From assembly GCA_904830895.1 (NCBI GenBank), contig LR882958.1:4359501-4423500 (forward strand): DNA of 64,000 nt, read 5' to 3'. Under the pieces are notes generated by a model, which saw only the letters and a program-made list of their open reading frames with translations, made no database searches and was not told the origin of the DNA. The translations under genes were made by a program, and so were the position numbers. Source of the stretch: Planktothrix rubescens CCAP 1459/22 (GTDB lineage Bacteria > Cyanobacteriota > Cyanobacteriia > Cyanobacteriales > Microcoleaceae). Each line of letters starts with the position of its first letter. Position 1 is the stretch's first letter. This document shows positions 19,819 through 26,509 of this stretch, one piece after another.

Positions 19819-20712
19819 ATGCTTAAACATAGCGATTTTGACCAAACAGATACAGCAGTTCGCGCTAAAATTCTCAGTGAAGCTCTCCCCTATATTCAAA
19901 AGTTTTCTAATCGCACGATTGTGGTGAAATATGGGGGGGCTGCGATGAAAGATAGTAGCCTTAAAGATAAGGTGATGCAGGATATTGTGTTACTATCTTT
20001 TGTCGGAATTCGGGTGGTGGTGGTTCATGGCGGTGGCCCAGAAATTAATAGTTGGTTGATTAAATTGGGAATTGAGCCTCAATTTAAAAATGGGTTGCGA
20101 GTTACTGATGCTGCAACGATGGATGTGGTGGAAATGGTGTTAGTGGGTCGGGTGAATAAGGAAATTGTTTCTCTGATTAACCAGGCGGGAGGGGAAGCTG
20201 TTGGCTTATGTGGCAAGGATGCTAATTTAATTAAAGCTCGTCCCGAAGGTCAAGCCGATATTGGTTTTGTAGGAGAAGTCAGTAGTGTCAATACTAAACT
20301 TTTAGAGTCTTTGGTGAGTAGTGGTTATATTCCCGTAGTTTCTAGTGTGGCAACGGATGAAGATGGACAGGCTTATAACATGAATGCCGATACGGTCGCC
20401 GGGGAAATTGCGGCCGCCTTGGGTGCTGAAAAGTTAATTCTGTTAACAGATACGGCCGGAATTTTGGAGGATTATCATAATCCTGATACCTTAATTGCCC
20501 AAGTTAATATTCAGGAAGCCCGACAATTAATTGATCAAGGAATTGTTTCTGGGGGTATGATTCCTAAAGTTAATTGTTGTGTCAGAAGTTTAGCCCAAGG
20601 TGTGCGGGCTGCTCATATTTTAGATGGTCGTGTTCCCCATGCTTTATTACAAGAAGTCTTCACTGATTCAGGTATAGGCACTATGATTGTCGCTTCTGAA
20701 TTTATGCGGTAA
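19819..20712 (+). CDS. argB: acetylglutamate kinase
   Basis: The 297-residue enzyme phosphorylates N-acetylglutamate in arginine synthesis and in cyanobacteria is controlled by the PII protein. Signatures are [29 protein letters not shown], the substrate-binding [21 protein letters not shown], and [11 protein letters not shown]. The N-terminal helix ([16 protein letters not shown]) needed for hexamer formation and arginine feedback is present. It follows mreD by 79 bp on the same strand and could be read through from the mre operon. Confidence 0.93.
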
Positions 20713-20754
20713 AGATTCACCGATAGTTTTCACCCGATAAGCTGTTGAGTCTCT

Positions 20755-20838
20755 ATGTTACGTGATCCGGCTCAACGCTGTCGCATGGCTCAAGCGATCG
20801 CCCAAGGGATTCTGCTATACATGATAGAGAGTAACTGA
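20755..20838 (+). pseudogene. remnant of the C-terminus of an N-acetylmuramoyl-L-alanine amidase
   Basis: A 27-codon ORF encodes LRDPAQRCRMAQAIAQGILLYM. It resembles the extreme C-terminal helix of cyanobacterial AmiC-type amidases (..P..R..MAxAIAxGILxYL). Nothing recognisable as amidase precedes it, so it is read as a leftover of a deleted gene just after argB. A HIP1 site lies inside the ORF. Confidence 0.45.
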
Positions 20839-20925
20839 AATATCGAGCGATCGCCCAGAGACTCAAAATAGTACCCAATTGGTGAGAAGTATCCGGCAAC
20901 AATATTGGCATCCGTAATAAATTAT

Positions 20926-22314
20926 TTATACCTGGTTATTTAGACTTTCTATATATTGCTTAATTAAAGGTAAAACAGTATAAAAATTTCCTTGTTGTTC
21001 GATTAAACAACGTTTTAATAAAGATTGTAGAGCATTAATTAAATCCGATGAATTAATTTTACTATTTTCTAACAATTTAACTAAATTAACCGGATGGTTT
21101 TCCTTTGCCAATGAAGAAAGCACTTGTTTTTCTATTTCCGATAAGCGATCGCACTGTTGCTGTAAACTATCTTTAATATCTTCAGGTAACAATAGAGTAT
21201 TATTAATTAATACCTCAATTTCACATTCTCCCAAATCCTGCATCAAATTTGCTATACTCTTTAACCAGAAAGGATTGCCTTGATAGCGTTGAATAATTGT
21301 ATCCCGGTGATCAATTTCCGTTAACCCATTATCTCTGAATATTTCCCGCGCAGCTACAATATCCAAACCCGTCAGTCGTAAAGTCCGAATTAGAGAATTT
21401 TCGCTTTTAACTTCAGTTATAATTCTAGGTTGTTCCCAACCAATTAACACAACACAACTTTGATGAGATAATTCTTTGATTTGTTTAAATAAAGTGCGAT
21501 AATCTTCATATCCAGACTTATACTTTCCGACCAATTCCCCACTAATAAAAAGATTTTGAATATTATCTAAAATAACTAAACACCGATACTTTTGCAAATA
21601 TTTAATTAGAGGTAAAAATTTATGATTATTTGCAGATAAATCCAACTGTTCAGACTGAGAAATTATCCGAATCAAATTACTTTGAAATTCGCCTAAAGTC
21701 GTCAATGAGTCAAAATCACACCAAATTACATACTCAAATTCATCCTTAATTTGTTGAACCAATTGCACCGTTAACGCTGTTTTACCAATACCACTAATAC
21801 CCGTAATTGCAATCAAGCGACAGCGTTGTTGTAAAATCCAATTTGTCAAGGTTGATAATTCAGGGATGCGATTATAAAAAGCACCCAAATCAGGCATTTC
21901 GCTTAAATCATTATGCAGAGTTTCAATTGATTCTGACTGAGAAATATTCTCATTTTGCTGATGTGGGTTTGGTGTATCTGGCGGATGTCTACTTTCTCCA
22001 CAAATATTAAAACTACCACTAACTACGACATCTTGTGCAAAGTTAAAAAGATTAGCATTTTGTAACCTCTCCATTGCAGATTTAAAATTAGATTTATTAA
22101 CATCTTCCCCTAACTCTTTTGCAAGAATTTTCCATAATTTTGATCCCGCATTCCTAACGTTACTTCCAGAACAATCAAAATCCTTAGCAATTTGTTTGTA
22201 TGTCTCATGTTGTAGAGTTCCCCGCAATACCGCTTCCTCTAAATCATCAAGATGCCTACCAGTTTTAGCAAACACTATATCATCAGCCACTTTTAACATT
22301 TCTTTAAGGTTCAT
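20926..22314 (-). CDS. STAND/NB-ARC ATPase with vMAP-type N-terminal helix-turn-helix domain
   Basis: About 462 residues in three parts. The N-terminal domain (about 1-85: MNLKEMLKVADDIVF, GRHLDDLEEAVLRGTL, YKQIAKDFDCSGSNV) resembles the winged-helix-like domain found at the front of many cyanobacterial NB-ARC proteins. A linker of about 60 residues follows. The NB-ARC P-loop ATPase comes next, with Walker A (ITGISGIGKTALT), Walker B (RCLVILDNIQ) and the GNPFWL motif, ending in a winged-helix region (LSEIEKQVLSSLAKENHPVNLVKLL). There is no C-terminal WD40, TPR or LRR sensor, unlike most STAND proteins. I start at the internal Met because a TTGTCT-17-TATGCT promoter overlaps the longer ORF start at 22377. 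It is divergent from the Ala/Gly-rich gene at 22528. Confidence 0.75.
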   Translation of the reverse strand: MNLKEMLKVADDIVFAKTGRHLDDLEEAVLRGTLQHETYKQIAKDFDCSGSNVRNAGSKLWKILAKELGEDVNKSNFKSAMERLQNANLFNFAQDVVVSGSFNICGESRHPPDTPNPHQQNENISQSESIETLHNDLSEMPDLGAFYNRIPELSTLTNWILQQRCRLIAITGISGIGKTALTVQLVQQIKDEFEYVIWCDFDSLTTLGEFQSNLIRIISQSEQLDLSANNHKFLPLIKYLQKYRCLVILDNIQNLFISGELVGKYKSGYEDYRTLFKQIKELSHQSCVVLIGWEQPRIITEVKSENSLIRTLRLTGLDIVAAREIFRDNGLTEIDHRDTIIQRYQGNPFWLKSIANLMQDLGECEIEVLINNTLLLPEDIKDSLQQQCDRLSEIEKQVLSSLAKENHPVNLVKLLENSKINSSDLINALQSLLKRCLIEQQGNFYTVLPLIKQYIESLNNQV

Positions 22315-22348
22315 TTGGGCTAGGATATGGGAGAGTTTTGTGCATTGT

Positions 22349-22377
22349 AGCATACATGGGCTGATTTTTTTAGACAA
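22349..22377 (-). promoter_or_regulatory. putative promoter of the STAND ATPase gene
   Basis: Read on the minus strand, TTGTCT (22372-22377) and TATGCT (22349-22354) are spaced by 17 bp. This places the transcript start near 22341 and supports the ATG at 22314. A TTGACA at 22435-22440 on the plus strand may serve the divergent gene at 22528, though its -10 match is poor. Confidence 0.4.
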
Positions 22378-22527
22378 TTTTGTATATTTTTGTATAAAAC
22401 TAGATTTTAAGAAGACAAGGGTTGGTAAAAATTGTTGACAAAACAGGATATTTTTGGGCTAGACAAAACTTCGATTTTTAAGAAATAATAAAGACAGTAT
22501 TCAAATATCAAACTAGGAATTACAAAT

Positions 22528-23118
22528 ATGAGTTTTGAAGATATCGCCCGTCAAGCTGTTGAAAAAGCTTTTGAACAGGGTACGGAGACTGTTGTAGAAA
22601 AAACTACGGGTATTGATGGAAATACAGTCAAAACAGTCAAAGCAGTTGCAGAAACTGGTGCTGCGGTAGGTGCGGCTGCCAGTGCAGCTACGGGGTTGAC
22701 TGTTGCAGCAACTTCAGGAGCAGGAATTACTTCGGGTTTAGCTGCCGCAGGTAGCGTGGTTGGTGGTGGGATGGCTGTTGGGCCTGCGGTATTAGCAGCA
22801 GGCCCAGCTTATCTTGGGGCAAAAATAATGAATGAAACTTTGTTCAAAGACCAACCTGACTTATCTGAGGAGGAGAATGGAGCTCGTGCAGCGGCAAGAA
22901 CAGCTACAAATATTGGGGCTGCTGCTGGTATAGCTGGTGCTGGTTTGGTAACCGTAGCTGGTGGTGCTTCTGGTGCTGCAATTATGGGTACTCTTGCAGG
23001 TATCGGTGGTGTTGTTGGGGGAGGTGCAATTGCTGGTACTGCCATCGTTGCTGCTGCACCTGTTGCTGCTGCTGCTGCTATTGGATACGGAGTATATAAA
23101 CTTTTTGGAGGTAAATAG
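22528..23118 (+). CDS. Ala/Gly-rich hydrophobic protein with glycine-zipper-like segments
   Basis: The 196-residue protein opens with an amphipathic charged stretch (SFEDIARQAVEKAFEQGTETVVEKTTG). It then has two long Ala/Gly/Val membrane-compatible blocks (about 45-100 and 128-190), separated by a charged loop (FKDQPDLSEEENGARAAARTA). Many GxxxG-like spacings occur (IAGAGLVTVAGGASG, GGVVGGGAIAGTAIV), typical of glycine-zipper or pore-forming proteins. No signal peptide or known domain is recognised. It is divergent from the STAND ATPase at 20926 with about 210 bp between starts, so the ATPase could regulate or trigger it. That link is inference. A TTGAGTT/AACTCAA terminator follows. Confidence 0.65.
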   Translation: MSFEDIARQAVEKAFEQGTETVVEKTTGIDGNTVKTVKAVAETGAAVGAAASAATGLTVAATSGAGITSGLAAAGSVVGGGMAVGPAVLAAGPAYLGAKIMNETLFKDQPDLSEEENGARAAARTATNIGAAAGIAGAGLVTVAGGASGAAIMGTLAGIGGVVGGGAIAGTAIVAAAPVAAAAAIGYGVYKLFGGK

Positions 23119-23165
23119 AAAAATCGTTAGCTTATTTCTACCTATTTAAGTCATAACAAAAAAAG

Positions 23166-23197
23166 TTGAGTTTCCTAGCGTTAACTCAATTTTTTTT
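23166..23197 (+). terminator. intrinsic terminator after the Ala/Gly-rich gene
   Basis: TTGAGTT (23166-23172) pairs with AACTCAA (23183-23189), followed by a run of eight T. A run of A before the stem makes it potentially bidirectional. Confidence 0.75.
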
Positions 23198-23232
23198 ACT
23201 TATATTCTTATCCATTGCTACAATCATTATAC

Positions 23233-23302
23233 GGGAGTGCGATCGCCTTCTTAAAAAAAGCGGGATCGCACTTTCTTTTAATAATTGTAGGGAGAGCGAT
23301 CG
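23233..23302. repeat. HIP1-containing dispersed repeat, first copy
   Basis: Pairs of GCGATCGC-type sites sit in the context AGTGCGATCGCCTTCTTAAA .. GCACTTTCTTTTAATAATTGTAGGGAGAGCGATCGC. The same module (TTGTAGGGAGAGCGATCGC + CTTCTTAAA + AGCGATCGCACTTTCTTG) recurs at about 24084-24112, 24844-24915, 25690-25775 and 26571-26612. It is always between toxin-antitoxin genes and can fold on itself because the sites are palindromic. Confidence 0.75.
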
Positions 23303-23415
23303 CAGTCTGACAAGAAAGATTGATGAGACTGCCCTTGCTTGTAATTTGGATTGTTAGTCATTTTTGGGATCTTTATAATTATAATTAATAGTTAAATTAA
23401 TGAGTAGAGTTAACG

Positions 23416-23658
23416 ATGCGAACTATTGGATTAAAGGTAACGATAACAAGCAATGGCAAGTTGTTAGTCGATTCTCCTGTAGATATACCAGTGGGTCAGT
23501 ATAATGCCGTTCTCGTTATAGAAGATCAACCCATTTCGGATCAGGCTCAAACCTCCGTCCAAAAGGCTCAAGCTCTTTTCAGGCAATATATTCCTGCTAG
23601 TAGAAAACTCTCGGAGGAGTTGATTCAGGAGCGGAGATTGGAGGCGACAGGTGAGTGA
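23416..23658 (+). CDS. antitoxin of a PIN-domain toxin-antitoxin pair
   Basis: An 80-residue protein (MRTIGLKVTITSNGKLLVDSPVDIPVGQY..) with an N-terminal beta-rich segment and a charged C-terminal helix (LSEELIQERRLEATGE). Its stop overlaps the GTG start of the PIN toxin at 23651 by 8 bases, the usual antitoxin-first arrangement. It is not a classical AbrB, RHH or Phd protein by eye, and the identification rests mainly on context. A HIP1 repeat module lies upstream. Confidence 0.7.
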   Translation: MRTIGLKVTITSNGKLLVDSPVDIPVGQYNAVLVIEDQPISDQAQTSVQKAQALFRQYIPASRKLSEELIQERRLEATGE

Positions 23659-24034
23659 AGTTGTTTTAGATGCCTCTGCTGTTTTAGCTTTACTGAATCA
23701 AGAAACGGGTAGCGAAGAAATTTCGCGGTTTATTGGAAATGCTGCTATCAGTACCGTCAACTTGTCTGAAGTGATAGCAAAGTTAGCGGAAGCAGGAATA
23801 AATGAAAACATCATTCAGCAGATTCTATCCAATCTAAATCTTGAGGTTATAGCTTTTGATCAAGAACAAGCATTAAAGTCGGGAATGCTGCGACCAAAAA
23901 CTAAATCAATTGGGCTTTCATTTGGTGATCGCGCTTGTCTAGCGTTAGGGATTTCTCTTAATCAACCTGTTCTGACAACTGATAGATTGTGGAGCAATCT
24001 TAGCCTTGCAGTTGAAGTCCGAGTGGTGCGTTAG
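23651..24034 (+). CDS. VapC-like PIN-domain toxin
   Basis: The 127-residue PIN protein has the expected acidic residues: Asp7 (VVLDASAVLALL), Glu in STVNLSEVIAK, Asp in FGDRACLALG and Asp in LTTDRLW. VapC toxins are Mg2+-dependent RNases that cut tRNA or rRNA. It starts with GTG overlapping the upstream antitoxin gene, so translation is probably coupled. It appears intact. Confidence 0.85.
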   Translation: MSEVVLDASAVLALLNQETGSEEISRFIGNAAISTVNLSEVIAKLAEAGINENIIQQILSNLNLEVIAFDQEQALKSGMLRPKTKSIGLSFGDRACLALGISLNQPVLTTDRLWSNLSLAVEVRVVR

Positions 24035-24129: not shown

Positions 24130-24528
24130 TTAATTAGCAGCCCAAAGAACGGAAATATCGCTGTATTGCTTGAATATTGAATCAGCACTCACCAGCGTCA
24201 TATTCTCAATTTGAGCCTGAGCAATCAACATTCGATCAAAGGGATCTCGATGATGTAATGGTAAAGCAGATGATCGCAGTGCATGAGGTGCTGTGATTTC
24301 CAAATATCGCATATCTAACTGCACCATACGACTAGAAATGTAGGTATCTATTGGCTCTGGCAATGGTAATTTTCTGATCGCAACTTTGATCCCAATTTCC
24401 CAAACACTAGCAACAGAAAACCATAATTCATTACTTTCATCGGCAATCTGTGCGATCACTTCCTGATTTAATCGCTCAGGTTGGGCAAACCACCACAACC
24501 AGCATTGGGTATCCAACAATAATTTCAC
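24130..24528 (-). CDS. VapC-like PIN-domain toxin
   Basis: The 132-residue PIN protein shows catalytic acids Asp6 (LLLDTQCWLWW), Glu in ASVWEIGIK, Asp in HHRDPFDRMLIAQA and Asp in LVSADSIF. This is the DTHxxLW...PFDRxLIAQA subgroup that usually pairs with Phd/YefM-type antitoxins. Its start overlaps the stop of the antitoxin at 24525 (ATGA-type overlap). The pair runs convergent to the TA pair at 23416. It appears intact. Confidence 0.87.
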   Translation of the reverse strand: MKLLLDTQCWLWWFAQPERLNQEVIAQIADESNELWFSVASVWEIGIKVAIRKLPLPEPIDTYISSRMVQLDMRYLEITAPHALRSSALPLHHRDPFDRMLIAQAQIENMTLVSADSIFKQYSDISVLWAAN

Positions 24529-24782
24529 TGTTCATTTCCTTCAAATGCTGCCAAAATTTCTTGGGGTAACGGTTCATTAAAGTCGTCTGGTATGATAAAT
24601 TTACCTTGATCTTGCCCTAAACTCGCCCGTCGATTGGATGAAGGACGAAACGGAATTAACTTCGCGATCGCCACCCCTTGATTGGAAATAATAATTTCTT
24701 CTCCAAGTTCTACACGAGACAATAACTCAGAGAGATTTTTTTTGAAGTTGTTGGGTAAGTTTTCAATCTGAAGTTTAGCCAT
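24525..24782 (-). CDS. Phd/YefM family antitoxin
   Basis: The 85-residue antitoxin has the Phd core (LSELLSRVELGEEIIISNQGVAIAKLIPF) and a C-terminal toxin-binding tail (DDFNEPLPQEILAAFEGNEQ). Its first residues MAKLQIENLP and its upstream 100 bp are nearly the same as those of the unrelated antitoxin at 26234. This indicates that a common leader has been joined to two different antitoxin bodies. It neutralises the PIN toxin at 24130 and probably represses its own promoter. Confidence 0.85.
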   Translation of the reverse strand: MAKLQIENLPNNFKKNLSELLSRVELGEEIIISNQGVAIAKLIPFRPSSNRRASLGQDQGKFIIPDDFNEPLPQEILAAFEGNEQ

Positions 24783-24885
24783 GACGATCCCAGAATTACT
24801 TAATTTATTATATCACCAGTTTCCATCATATCAATGTGATCATTGTAGGGAGAGCGATCGCCTTCTTAAAATAAAGAGCGATCGC
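24754..24885. repeat. 132-bp duplicated antitoxin leader, copy 1
   Basis: It covers the first ten codons of the antitoxin at 24525, its upstream region and one HIP1 module. It differs from copy 2 (26481-26612) at only about three positions. A TGATCA-containing motif (TCAATGTGATCATTG) inside it recurs near 25781 and, in altered form, near 25683, and may be an operator. Confidence 0.85.
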
Positions 24886-24963
24886 ACTTTCTTGTAATAA
24901 TTGTAGGGAGAGCGATTGCTTAAGATATAATCAAAACAACCCATCTAAGAAAATAGCTCAATC

Positions 24964-25214: not shown

Positions 25215-25619
25215 ATGAGTAATTATTGGGTAGATGCCAATATTTTATTAAGGTTCATTACCAATGATCCCCTCAATCTCGCTGAACGGTCTGCTAGATT
25301 TTTACAGAAAGCTGAACAAGGGGAAATTACACTCAAGGTATCTTCAATTGTTGTGGCTGAAGTGGTTTGGGTATTAATTTCTTTTTATGGTTATTCTCGA
25401 CAACAAGTTGCAGATGTTTTGATAGGTTTGTTAACATCAGAGGGTATTATTCTTGAATCTAGTGAGCAAGTAATAGCAGCCCTTGATAGTATGGCGACAG
25501 CAAATGTTGATTTTGTTGATGCTTATCTTGCAGAAGTGGCTCGTAAAGAAAATGAGTCTGTTGCTTCTTTTGATCGAGATTTCAAACGTTTAGATATACG
25601 TTATATAGAGCCAGATTAA
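25215..25619 (+). CDS. VapC-like PIN-domain toxin
   Basis: The 134-residue PIN protein has Asp7 (YWVDANILLRFI), Glu (SSIVVAEVVWVL), Asp (NVDFVDAYLAEVA) and a final acidic site (VASFDRDFKRL), the full set of catalytic positions. It belongs to the DANxLLRxxxxD subgroup usually paired with AbrB-type antitoxins, which matches the gene 2 bp upstream. It appears intact and may be active as an RNase. Confidence 0.88.
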   Translation: MSNYWVDANILLRFITNDPLNLAERSARFLQKAEQGEITLKVSSIVVAEVVWVLISFYGYSRQQVADVLIGLLTSEGIILESSEQVIAALDSMATANVDFVDAYLAEVARKENESVASFDRDFKRLDIRYIEPD

Positions 25620-25689
25620 TTAATTTTTGATTGGATTCATGGGAATGAGTTAGTCTATTATACCACCAATTTCTATCATGACAACGTGA

Positions 25690-25775
25690 TCATCACAAGA
25701 AAGTGCGATCGCATTCTTGAAAAAGGAGCGATCGCACTTTCTTGTAATAATTGTAGGGAAAGCGATCGCATTTCA
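25690..25775. repeat. HIP1 repeat module, longest copy
   Basis: Three GCGATCGC sites occur in one unit: AAGAAAGTGCGATCGCATTC .. GGAGCGATCGCACTTTCTTG .. TTGTAGGGAAAGCGATCGC. The first two halves are inverted copies of each other, giving a long hairpin. It lies between the convergent toxin genes at 25215 and 25790. Confidence 0.75.
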
Positions 25776-25789
25776 TCATATCAATGTGA

Positions 25790-26237
25790 TCATTTTAGAG
25801 AAAAAGTTGTAAAAAGTCTCACATCAAACCTGCTACCTGTCAAAGAATTTACTAACCGTTCATCCAGAGTTAGCAACGGTGCTTTAACTTGTTCTGAAAG
25901 TGCTACATAACAGCCATCATAAGTAAGCTGTAATTCCATAGTCCAAACCAATTTGAACAGCATTACTGATTAGATCTTTTGTTGAAATGACTTGAAATCG
26001 TAGTGCTTTTAAGTCACTTAAATCGGCTTTAACCTGTTCAGCCGTGTAGAGGTTAGCGCGTACATACTTCCAGAGAACATTAGCACATTCAATATAAAAA
26101 AGATCAGGTACAAAAAACTCAACAGAAGGATCATCAAGATGAGTAAATAGTTGATTAACTTTAGAGGTCAATAGATCAGCAACAAATAACTTAATACAAA
26201 TATTTGTATCAATTATGCAGCGTAAACTAACGGTCAT
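25790..26237 (-). pseudogene. PIN-domain toxin gene broken by a small frameshifting insertion
   Basis: The first 106 codons encode a PIN domain (CIIDTNICIKLF, DLFYIECANVLWK) and end at a TGA after GITAYL. Four surplus bases (TACT or an equivalent shift) near 25919-25922 break the frame. Skipping them gives an open continuation to 25790: YDGCYVALSEQV, then APLLTLDERLVNSL, and RLFTTFSLK before a TGA. That continuation supplies the missing third and fourth PIN motifs. The toxin is therefore probably dead, while its antitoxin at 26234 remains intact. Confidence 0.85.
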
Positions 26238-26509
26238 CTATTGCGATCCTCTTGAATTAAAATAGTGCTATCTGTTAATCCAAAATCCCTGGGGTTAACT
26301 CTCGGACGATTACGAATTATTTGTAGAATTGCTGACATGGGTTGGTTCTCTTGCGTCCGATTTATCATTACTTTGTCAGGATCAAATGATAAGGATTGCG
26401 TCAACAGATGAATAACTGCCTCATTAAGAGTAAAATTTTTCTCTGAGGCTAGACACTCAATCTGACTATATAGTTCATCAGGCAAGTTTTCAATCTGAAG
26501 TTTAGCCAT
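26234..26509 (-). CDS. antitoxin, ribbon-helix-helix (FitA/VapB-like)
   Basis: The 91-residue protein begins MAKLQIENLPDELYSQIECLASEKNFTLNEAVIHLL, the pattern of FitA-like RHH antitoxins (short strand followed by two helices). A C-terminal tail (RDFGLTDSTILIQEDRNR) probably binds the toxin. It overlaps the start of the broken PIN toxin by 4 bases. Its leader is the second copy of the 132-bp duplication also found before the Phd antitoxin at 24525. Confidence 0.78.
   Translation of the reverse strand: MAKLQIENLPDELYSQIECLASEKNFTLNEAVIHLLTQSLSFDPDKVMINRTQENQPMSAILQIIRNRPRVNPRDFGLTDSTILIQEDRNR

Follow-up and report, generated by a model that had tools for sequence, protein, structure and literature searches.

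A sensor-less NB-ARC ATPase of Planktothrix rubescens as a putative DNA switch facing an exchangeable divergent gene

Introduction

The medium and large Streptomyces SARP regulators CdaR, CpkO, FdmR1 and AfsR combine an N-terminal DNA-binding domain with an NB-ARC domain; SARP sites at the −35 element are direct repeats spaced by about one helical turn (11 bp; a single PimR site has 10 bp), and AfsR activates its neighbour afsS, whose promoter contains direct repeats that it binds (PMC10972967). A survey of cyanobacterial sigma-70 homologues includes "sigma70_r4/r4_2 x NB-ARC" architectures, and divergent partners or repeat operators are not reported in the part of that survey considered here (PMC11119718). 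Here, we analyzed a STAND ATPase with the same kind of domain pairing, encoded in a stretch of 64,000 nucleotides of Planktothrix rubescens CCAP 1459/22 (contig LR882958.1; hereafter the window), where its gene is divergently transcribed from that of a small glycine-zipper protein.

Like the Streptomyces regulators, this ATPase carries a predicted N-terminal DNA-binding domain and an NB-ARC core. We consider it likely, from comparative sequence analysis, that it is a CED-4-like STAND switch acting on DNA and controlling an interchangeable divergent gene, here that of the glycine-zipper protein. No paper describing such a divergent-repeat arrangement was found in the open-access literature.

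Results

The ATPase has an NB-ARC core, a winged helix and an N-terminal helix-turn-helix domain

A previous sequence-only reading of the window had described a STAND ATPase without a sensor domain, facing an Ala/Gly-rich protein across a shared promoter region of about 0.2 kb. Each of these elements was recovered. Open reading frames (ORFs) were present at 20926-22377 (minus strand, opening with a TTG at 22377) and 22528-23118 (plus strand), and the 196-aa product of the second is indeed rich in Ala and Gly. The start conserved across the ATPase family is the ATG at 22314, giving a protein of 462 aa whose M1 is invariant in 67 homologues and a divergent gap of 213 bp between this ATG and the small-protein gene. 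The coding features are as follows (HTH, helix-turn-helix; AF2, AlphaFold model):

20926-22314, minus strand: HTH-NB-ARC-winged-helix STAND ATPase, 462 aa, without a C-terminal sensor (NB-ARC match, conserved M1, AF2 model, Foldseek)
22060-22314, minus strand: N-terminal HTH domain, residues 1-85 (Sigma70_r4, Sigma70_r4_2 and GerE matches; five helices in the model)
22111-22167, minus strand: predicted HTH recognition helix, residues 50-68, following a helix at 39-45 (AF2 model)
21778-21801, minus strand: Walker A motif GISGIGKT, residues 172-179 (G172, G177 and K178 invariant in 67 homologues)
20929-21192, minus strand: C-terminal winged-helix region, residues 375-462 (helices and strands 378-461 of the model)
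22528-23118, plus strand: divergent partner, Ala/Gly-rich (glycine-zipper) protein of 196 aa (ORF and composition; relatives fused to LRAT domains)

The ATPase matched NB-ARC (PF00931) at 1.2e-10, and this domain was present in 67/67 family members. Together with the Walker A motif, a nearly invariant D250 in the 67 homologues agrees with a Walker A/B P-loop NTPase of the NB-ARC type, and the modelled winged helix and the conserved G346-N-P348, a GxP-type motif after the nucleotide-binding domain, are those expected of STAND/NB-ARC (AP-ATPase) NTPases. The AlphaFold model (mean predicted local distance difference test score, pLDDT, of 83.7) consists of an N-terminal helical domain, the nucleotide-binding domain and the winged helix, and its top Foldseek matches were wheat resistosomes, Roq1/RPP1 and CED-4. 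Nucleotide-dependent oligomerization would be expected of such a core. No repeat sensor domain was found in the window ATPase, and neither an N-terminal effector nor a C-terminal repeat sensor, as in Avs or bNACHT proteins, was detected. PADLOC made no defence call for the ATPase or the small protein, and reported only weak NTPase-core and winged-helix matches for the former.

The N-terminal domain had been named vMAP-type, a label that we abandoned: no vMAP model of the library matched it, and the N-terminal 85 residues instead match sigma-70 region 4 and related HTH models, weakly in the window ATPase and more clearly in paralogues, the best of which reached 1.7e-5. Models for BTAD and SARP gave no match to the ATPase N-terminus, and a profile search of the PDB with the HTH returned no significant relative. 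Related HTH domains occur in other contexts. Two proteins of about 170 aa (L077:4867-5373 and L082:3001-3513) carry this HTH together with another sigma-4-like match, located C-terminally, the repeat array upstream of the L082 gene being among the clearest, and a 651-aa protein in the same genome (L085:3001-4953) combines a related N-terminal HTH-like domain with a TIR domain and AAA_35.

Tandem 10-bp repeats upstream of the ATPase genes follow the HTH

The ATPase belongs to a large paralogous cyanobacterial family that is represented, in many relatives, by tens of copies per genome: 23 matches were found in its own genome, 55 of 59 relatives were positive, and 93 of 145 genomes of the class hold the family at E ≤ 1e-60. 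Most genomes compared in this work come from one cyanobacterial lineage. In the Microcoleaceae-type expansion, nearly all members are of about 450-475 aa without a sensor.

Direct repeats upstream of these genes were strongly over-represented at a period of 10 bp and its multiples (z = 19.5, 17.2 and 8.7 for 10, 20 and 30 bp, respectively, in 83 non-redundant regions). Gene by gene, the 10-bp period was significant for 116 of 189 domain carriers at p ≤ 0.05 (80 at p ≤ 0.01), and other periods (7-9 and 11-13) for 1 to 25 of the 189 at p ≤ 0.05. The sensor-less members gave 109/174 and 74/174 at the same two thresholds. Promoters of other genes at the same loci, used as controls with a related score, gave 2/46 at 0.05 and none of the 46 at p ≤ 0.01. 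Repeats were strongest at 40-100 bp from the start of the ATPase. When 13 whole genomes were scanned with a degenerate triple-repeat pattern, 13 sites were found, of which ten precede a gene carrying the same HTH by 34-145 bp and have the orientation of that gene. Repeats also precede some proteins made of the HTH alone or fused to pentapeptide repeats.

The relationship between the repeats and the protein domains was analyzed by permutation (Mantel) tests, using a register-free 10-bp profile and 41 members with less than 65% NB-ARC identity. Repeat similarity tracked identity at aligned HTH positions 36-66 when the NB-ARC and winged helix were controlled for (partial rho 0.39, p = 0.001, n = 41), and the converse correlation with the NB-ARC, the HTH being controlled for, was 0.07 (p = 0.15). 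Judging from these sequence comparisons, the repeat follows the HTH and not the NB-ARC domain.

The intergenic region of the locus carries a proximal array and a distal element

The following features were located in or next to the 213-bp gap:

22344-22349, minus strand: TACAAT, a −10-like box for the ATPase gene; most orthologues have TATAAT (alignment of 14 intergenic regions)
22366-22395, minus strand: proximal repeat array ATACAAAAAT ATACAAAATT GTCTAAAAAA with a 10-bp period, at −81 to −52 from the ATPase ATG (period-10 p = 0.025)
22437-22466, no strand assigned: distal conserved element TTGTCTAGCCCAAAAATATCCTGTTTTGTC, given on the ATPase strand, adjoining the partner −35 (14-region alignment)
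22460-22489, plus strand: promoter-like site of the small-protein gene, TAGACA-18-AATAAT (sequence pattern)
22501-22511, no strand assigned: point at which nucleotide homology to the ATPase loci of five Planktothrix orthologues, all facing other partners, stops (sequence comparison)

The proximal array lies just upstream of the TACAAT box. Among the orthologues listed, period-10 p values ranged from 0.005 to 0.055, and no second match to it was found in its own genome at ≤3 mismatches. The distal element is kept across the 14 regions, most of which have different partners. The TAGACA-18-AATAAT site is the only promoter-like site in the gap and reads toward the small protein; one such site was found against 0.8 expected in shuffled sequence, so that on its own it is no evidence for a promoter. 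Its −35 hexamer TAGACA is the reverse complement of the conserved TGTCTA. The locus shows what is seen at SARP/AfsR targets, namely direct repeats at a helical-turn spacing (here 10 bp) near the −35 of the target, here the putative partner −35, which the distal element abuts. Homology with the five other loci ends about 20 bp before the small-protein start codon.

The divergent layout is general and the partners are exchanged

For 113 non-redundant ATPase members, we recorded the closest ORF on the upstream side, counting those of 70 aa or more. It was divergent in 106 (94%), at a median distance of about 214 bp, compared with 22 of the 63 genes of the window (35%) taken as background. The 106 partners fall into 76 sequence families, and 134 of 182 ATPase pairs that are at least 70% identical face unrelated partners. 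Detectable intergenic homology usually ends before the partner start codon, with a median gap of 69 bp.

The partners are enriched in predicted membrane or exported proteins: among those of 70-300 aa, a strongly hydrophobic stretch was present in 47/86, and among neighbouring ORFs used as controls in 21/159 (p = 2e-11). Few were recognized by Pfam and PADLOC, and few Pfam families recur among the 85 partners scanned, the most frequent having matched six. The matches include dynamin/GTPase, AIG1, N6 methyltransferase, ThiF/E1-E2, LOG, IetA-like AAA, FG-GAP and RTX proteins as well as some ordinary enzymes, and one partner is a homologue of PF01338 (Cyt family). For sensor-sized homologues (about 1,200 aa, with WD40 repeats in the one scanned), divergent neighbours were found in 12/20 and period-10 repeats in 2/20. 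The combination of repeats and divergent layout therefore goes with the sensor-less branch.

The pair found in the window is not conserved as such

The sequence-only reading had inferred from position that the ATPase and the small protein are functionally linked, and had named the regular occurrence of either gene without the other as a finding that would refute this. A link between the ATPase and a divergent neighbour is borne out by the family-wide evidence, but not for these two partners in particular. At loose E-values, nine of the 59 relatives gave a match to the small protein, which was strong in six, and 13 positives were found among 340 genomes of the class. The ATPase lies opposite it in genomes of Planktothrix, Microcoleus and Tychonema. 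In fetched flanks, it was found without the ATPase at no fewer than 12 named loci (in Nostoc, Anabaena, Komarekiella, Trichormus, Pseudanabaena, Leptolyngbyaceae and others), and the genes opposite close orthologues of the ATPase are different ones. The refuting finding was therefore made for this pair, and an obligate ATPase/glycine-zipper pair was rejected.

The closest named record of the small protein, 97% identical, is from Planktothrix sp. PCC 11201, where the segment 20938-24112, comprising the unit and the first toxin-antitoxin pair, is contiguous and 94% identical; homology stops at the ATPase end, and neighbouring genes differ beyond. At L019, the N-terminal third of a 92% identical ATPase orthologue is missing, and no gene for a glycine-zipper protein was observed; the same antitoxin/PIN pair as at window 25917-26509 is found just upstream. 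In several Nostocales (L155, L156, L161, L163 and L164), the small-protein gene occupies a similar chromosomal place, next to apparent PilC-like pilus-assembly and aspartate-dehydrogenase-like genes (judged by eye), and because of this shared position it looks like a resident gene there.

The small protein and the neighbouring genes

Hydropathy analysis of the 196-aa protein showed three borderline hydrophobic stretches. Its sequence had no match in Pfam, NCBIfam (above the cut-off), PADLOC or a PDB sequence search, and its AlphaFold prediction was all-helical with a pLDDT of 46, too poor to use. Distant relatives of its glycine-rich tail are fused behind an LRAT (lecithin retinol acyltransferase) domain (L165:2638-3492, L174:1486-2301 and L176:1111-1980), pointing to a possible function of the tail in anchoring lipid-acting enzymes to the membrane. 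That the small protein acts at a membrane is plausible.

A toxin-antitoxin island follows the small-protein gene, as had been proposed, with PIN matches at 23651-24034, 24130-24528 and 25215-25619 and a weak one at 25917-26237. A segment of about 60-165 bp is repeated between these cassettes (23223-23316, 24754-24919 and 25643-25778) and recurs near related PIN cassettes in PCC 11201; it may drive cassette shuffling. Other neighbours resemble mreB/C/D and argB, from translations judged by eye. No Rfam element was found within 20600-23500.

Discussion

These results lend support to the following scheme. The N-terminal HTH of the ATPase would bind the tandem 10-bp repeats of the intergenic region, and nucleotide-driven oligomerization through the NB-ARC/winged-helix core would place protomers one helical turn apart on the same face of the DNA. 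The ATPase would thereby control its own promoter through the proximal array just upstream of the −10 box, and that of its partner through the distal element abutting the partner −35, most likely as an activator by analogy with AfsR. The partner would be an exchangeable cargo, often membrane-associated or exported, the glycine-zipper protein of the window probably acting at the membrane. Given that the ATPase has no sensor, the signal may be a ligand or a protein acting on the NB-ARC/winged helix, or the expression level itself. A role in defence, suggested by the partner classes and the toxin-antitoxin surroundings, is a reasonable guess, no more.

The opposite sign of regulation seems unlikely to us. 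In such a repressor or addiction module, the ATPase would silence a harmful partner and release it upon a signal or upon loss of the ATPase. The repeats do overlap the position of both promoters, toxin-like classes are found among the partners at some loci, and the unit travels with PIN toxin-antitoxin genes in Planktothrix sp. PCC 11201. However, many of the partners seem harmless, the SARP/AfsR proteins, whose domain logic is similar, act as activators (PMC10972967), and the L019 orthologue without its N-terminal part shows no glycine-zipper partner upstream.

It is improbable that the ATPase acts on its neighbour by direct contact, a model built on the sequence-only reading, which had paired a signalling ATPase with a membrane-disrupting effector; a triggered NLR-like ATPase would then activate the membrane protein, the two forming an abortive-infection system. 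At the N-terminus there is no adaptor domain but an HTH whose sequence is tracked by the DNA repeats, the unrelated partners of close ATPases are hard to square with specific contacts, and many genomes have the glycine-rich protein but not the ATPase. These data point to transcriptional control through DNA repeats, even though the genes are adjacent, the ATPase fold is NLR-like, the partners are enriched in membrane and exported proteins, and some match defence-linked families (dynamin, AIG1, methyltransferases, IetA and E1-E2). Finally, that the repeats serve the ATPase gene alone, with the neighbours as incidental insertions at a permissive site, would account for the strongest repeats being close to the ATPase start and for partners that resemble housekeeping genes, but is very improbable in view of the 94% divergent orientation (35% in the background), the strong membrane/export enrichment, and the distal element by the partner −35 that is conserved despite unrelated partners.

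Several points weigh against the DNA-switch scheme that we prefer. The sigma-4-like match is weak for the window ATPase itself, about 37% of the sensor-less members miss p ≤ 0.05 for the repeats, and the partners include apparent housekeeping genes (class I tRNA synthetase, ferredoxin); genes were, moreover, called mechanically. An earlier version of the HTH-repeat test, based on 3-bp repeat cores, gave p = 0.001 for all members and p = 0.08 for the non-redundant set. The assignment of these cores by regular expressions was noisy, and the 10-bp profile on a larger set that replaced it was chosen after this first result had been seen. Mantel permutation tests also remove shared ancestry only partly.

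NB-ARC/STAND proteins of prokaryotes that possess sensors and fused effectors are now interpreted as immune receptors. The family described here has lost this sensor but retains a DNA-binding head; it has expanded within genomes and is tied to shuffled membrane or exported proteins through readable operators. Were this correct, a testable code would lead from the recognition helix to the 10-bp repeat, the target of each paralogue would be predictable from sequence, and STAND regulators such as AfsR would be linked to the apoptosome/resistosome core. The partner set is then a catalogue of candidate effectors. More tentatively, dozens of sensor-less CED-4-like NB-ARC switches per genome, each with a private 10-bp operator, might drive interchangeable divergent effector cassettes, many of them membrane-targeted, as an immune-like repertoire that would be a transcriptional counterpart of NLR effector diversification.

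Compared with SARPs, the ATPase has a sigma-4-like HTH instead of a SARP/BTAD domain, lacks tetratricopeptide repeats, and belongs to a family of tens of paralogues, every one of which has a repeat sequence of its own and faces a divergent partner that is exchangeable. The VMAP ternary conflict systems (Kaur et al. 2020, PMC7159879) share with the locus NTP-dependent switches, variable effectors and an occurrence in multicellular bacteria. The locus, in contrast, has two divergent genes without MoxR, a vWA protein or VMAP-C, and no VMAP or vWA domain was found in the ATPase. The HTH-NB-ARC-WD40 proteins, such as L074 of this genome (1216 aa), have an HTH and an NB-ARC core homologous to those of the ATPase, but they possess WD40 sensors, and homologues of such sensor-bearing size mostly lack period-10 repeats (2/20) and have divergent neighbours more rarely (12/20). 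The NB-ARC and winged-helix core is common to the ATPase, CED-4 and the plant NLR resistosomes (Sr35, G10, RPP1 and Roq1), and CED-4 likewise has no repeat sensor; the bacterial ATPase differs from them in having an HTH in place of the CARD, CC or TIR domain, and an associated array of DNA repeats.
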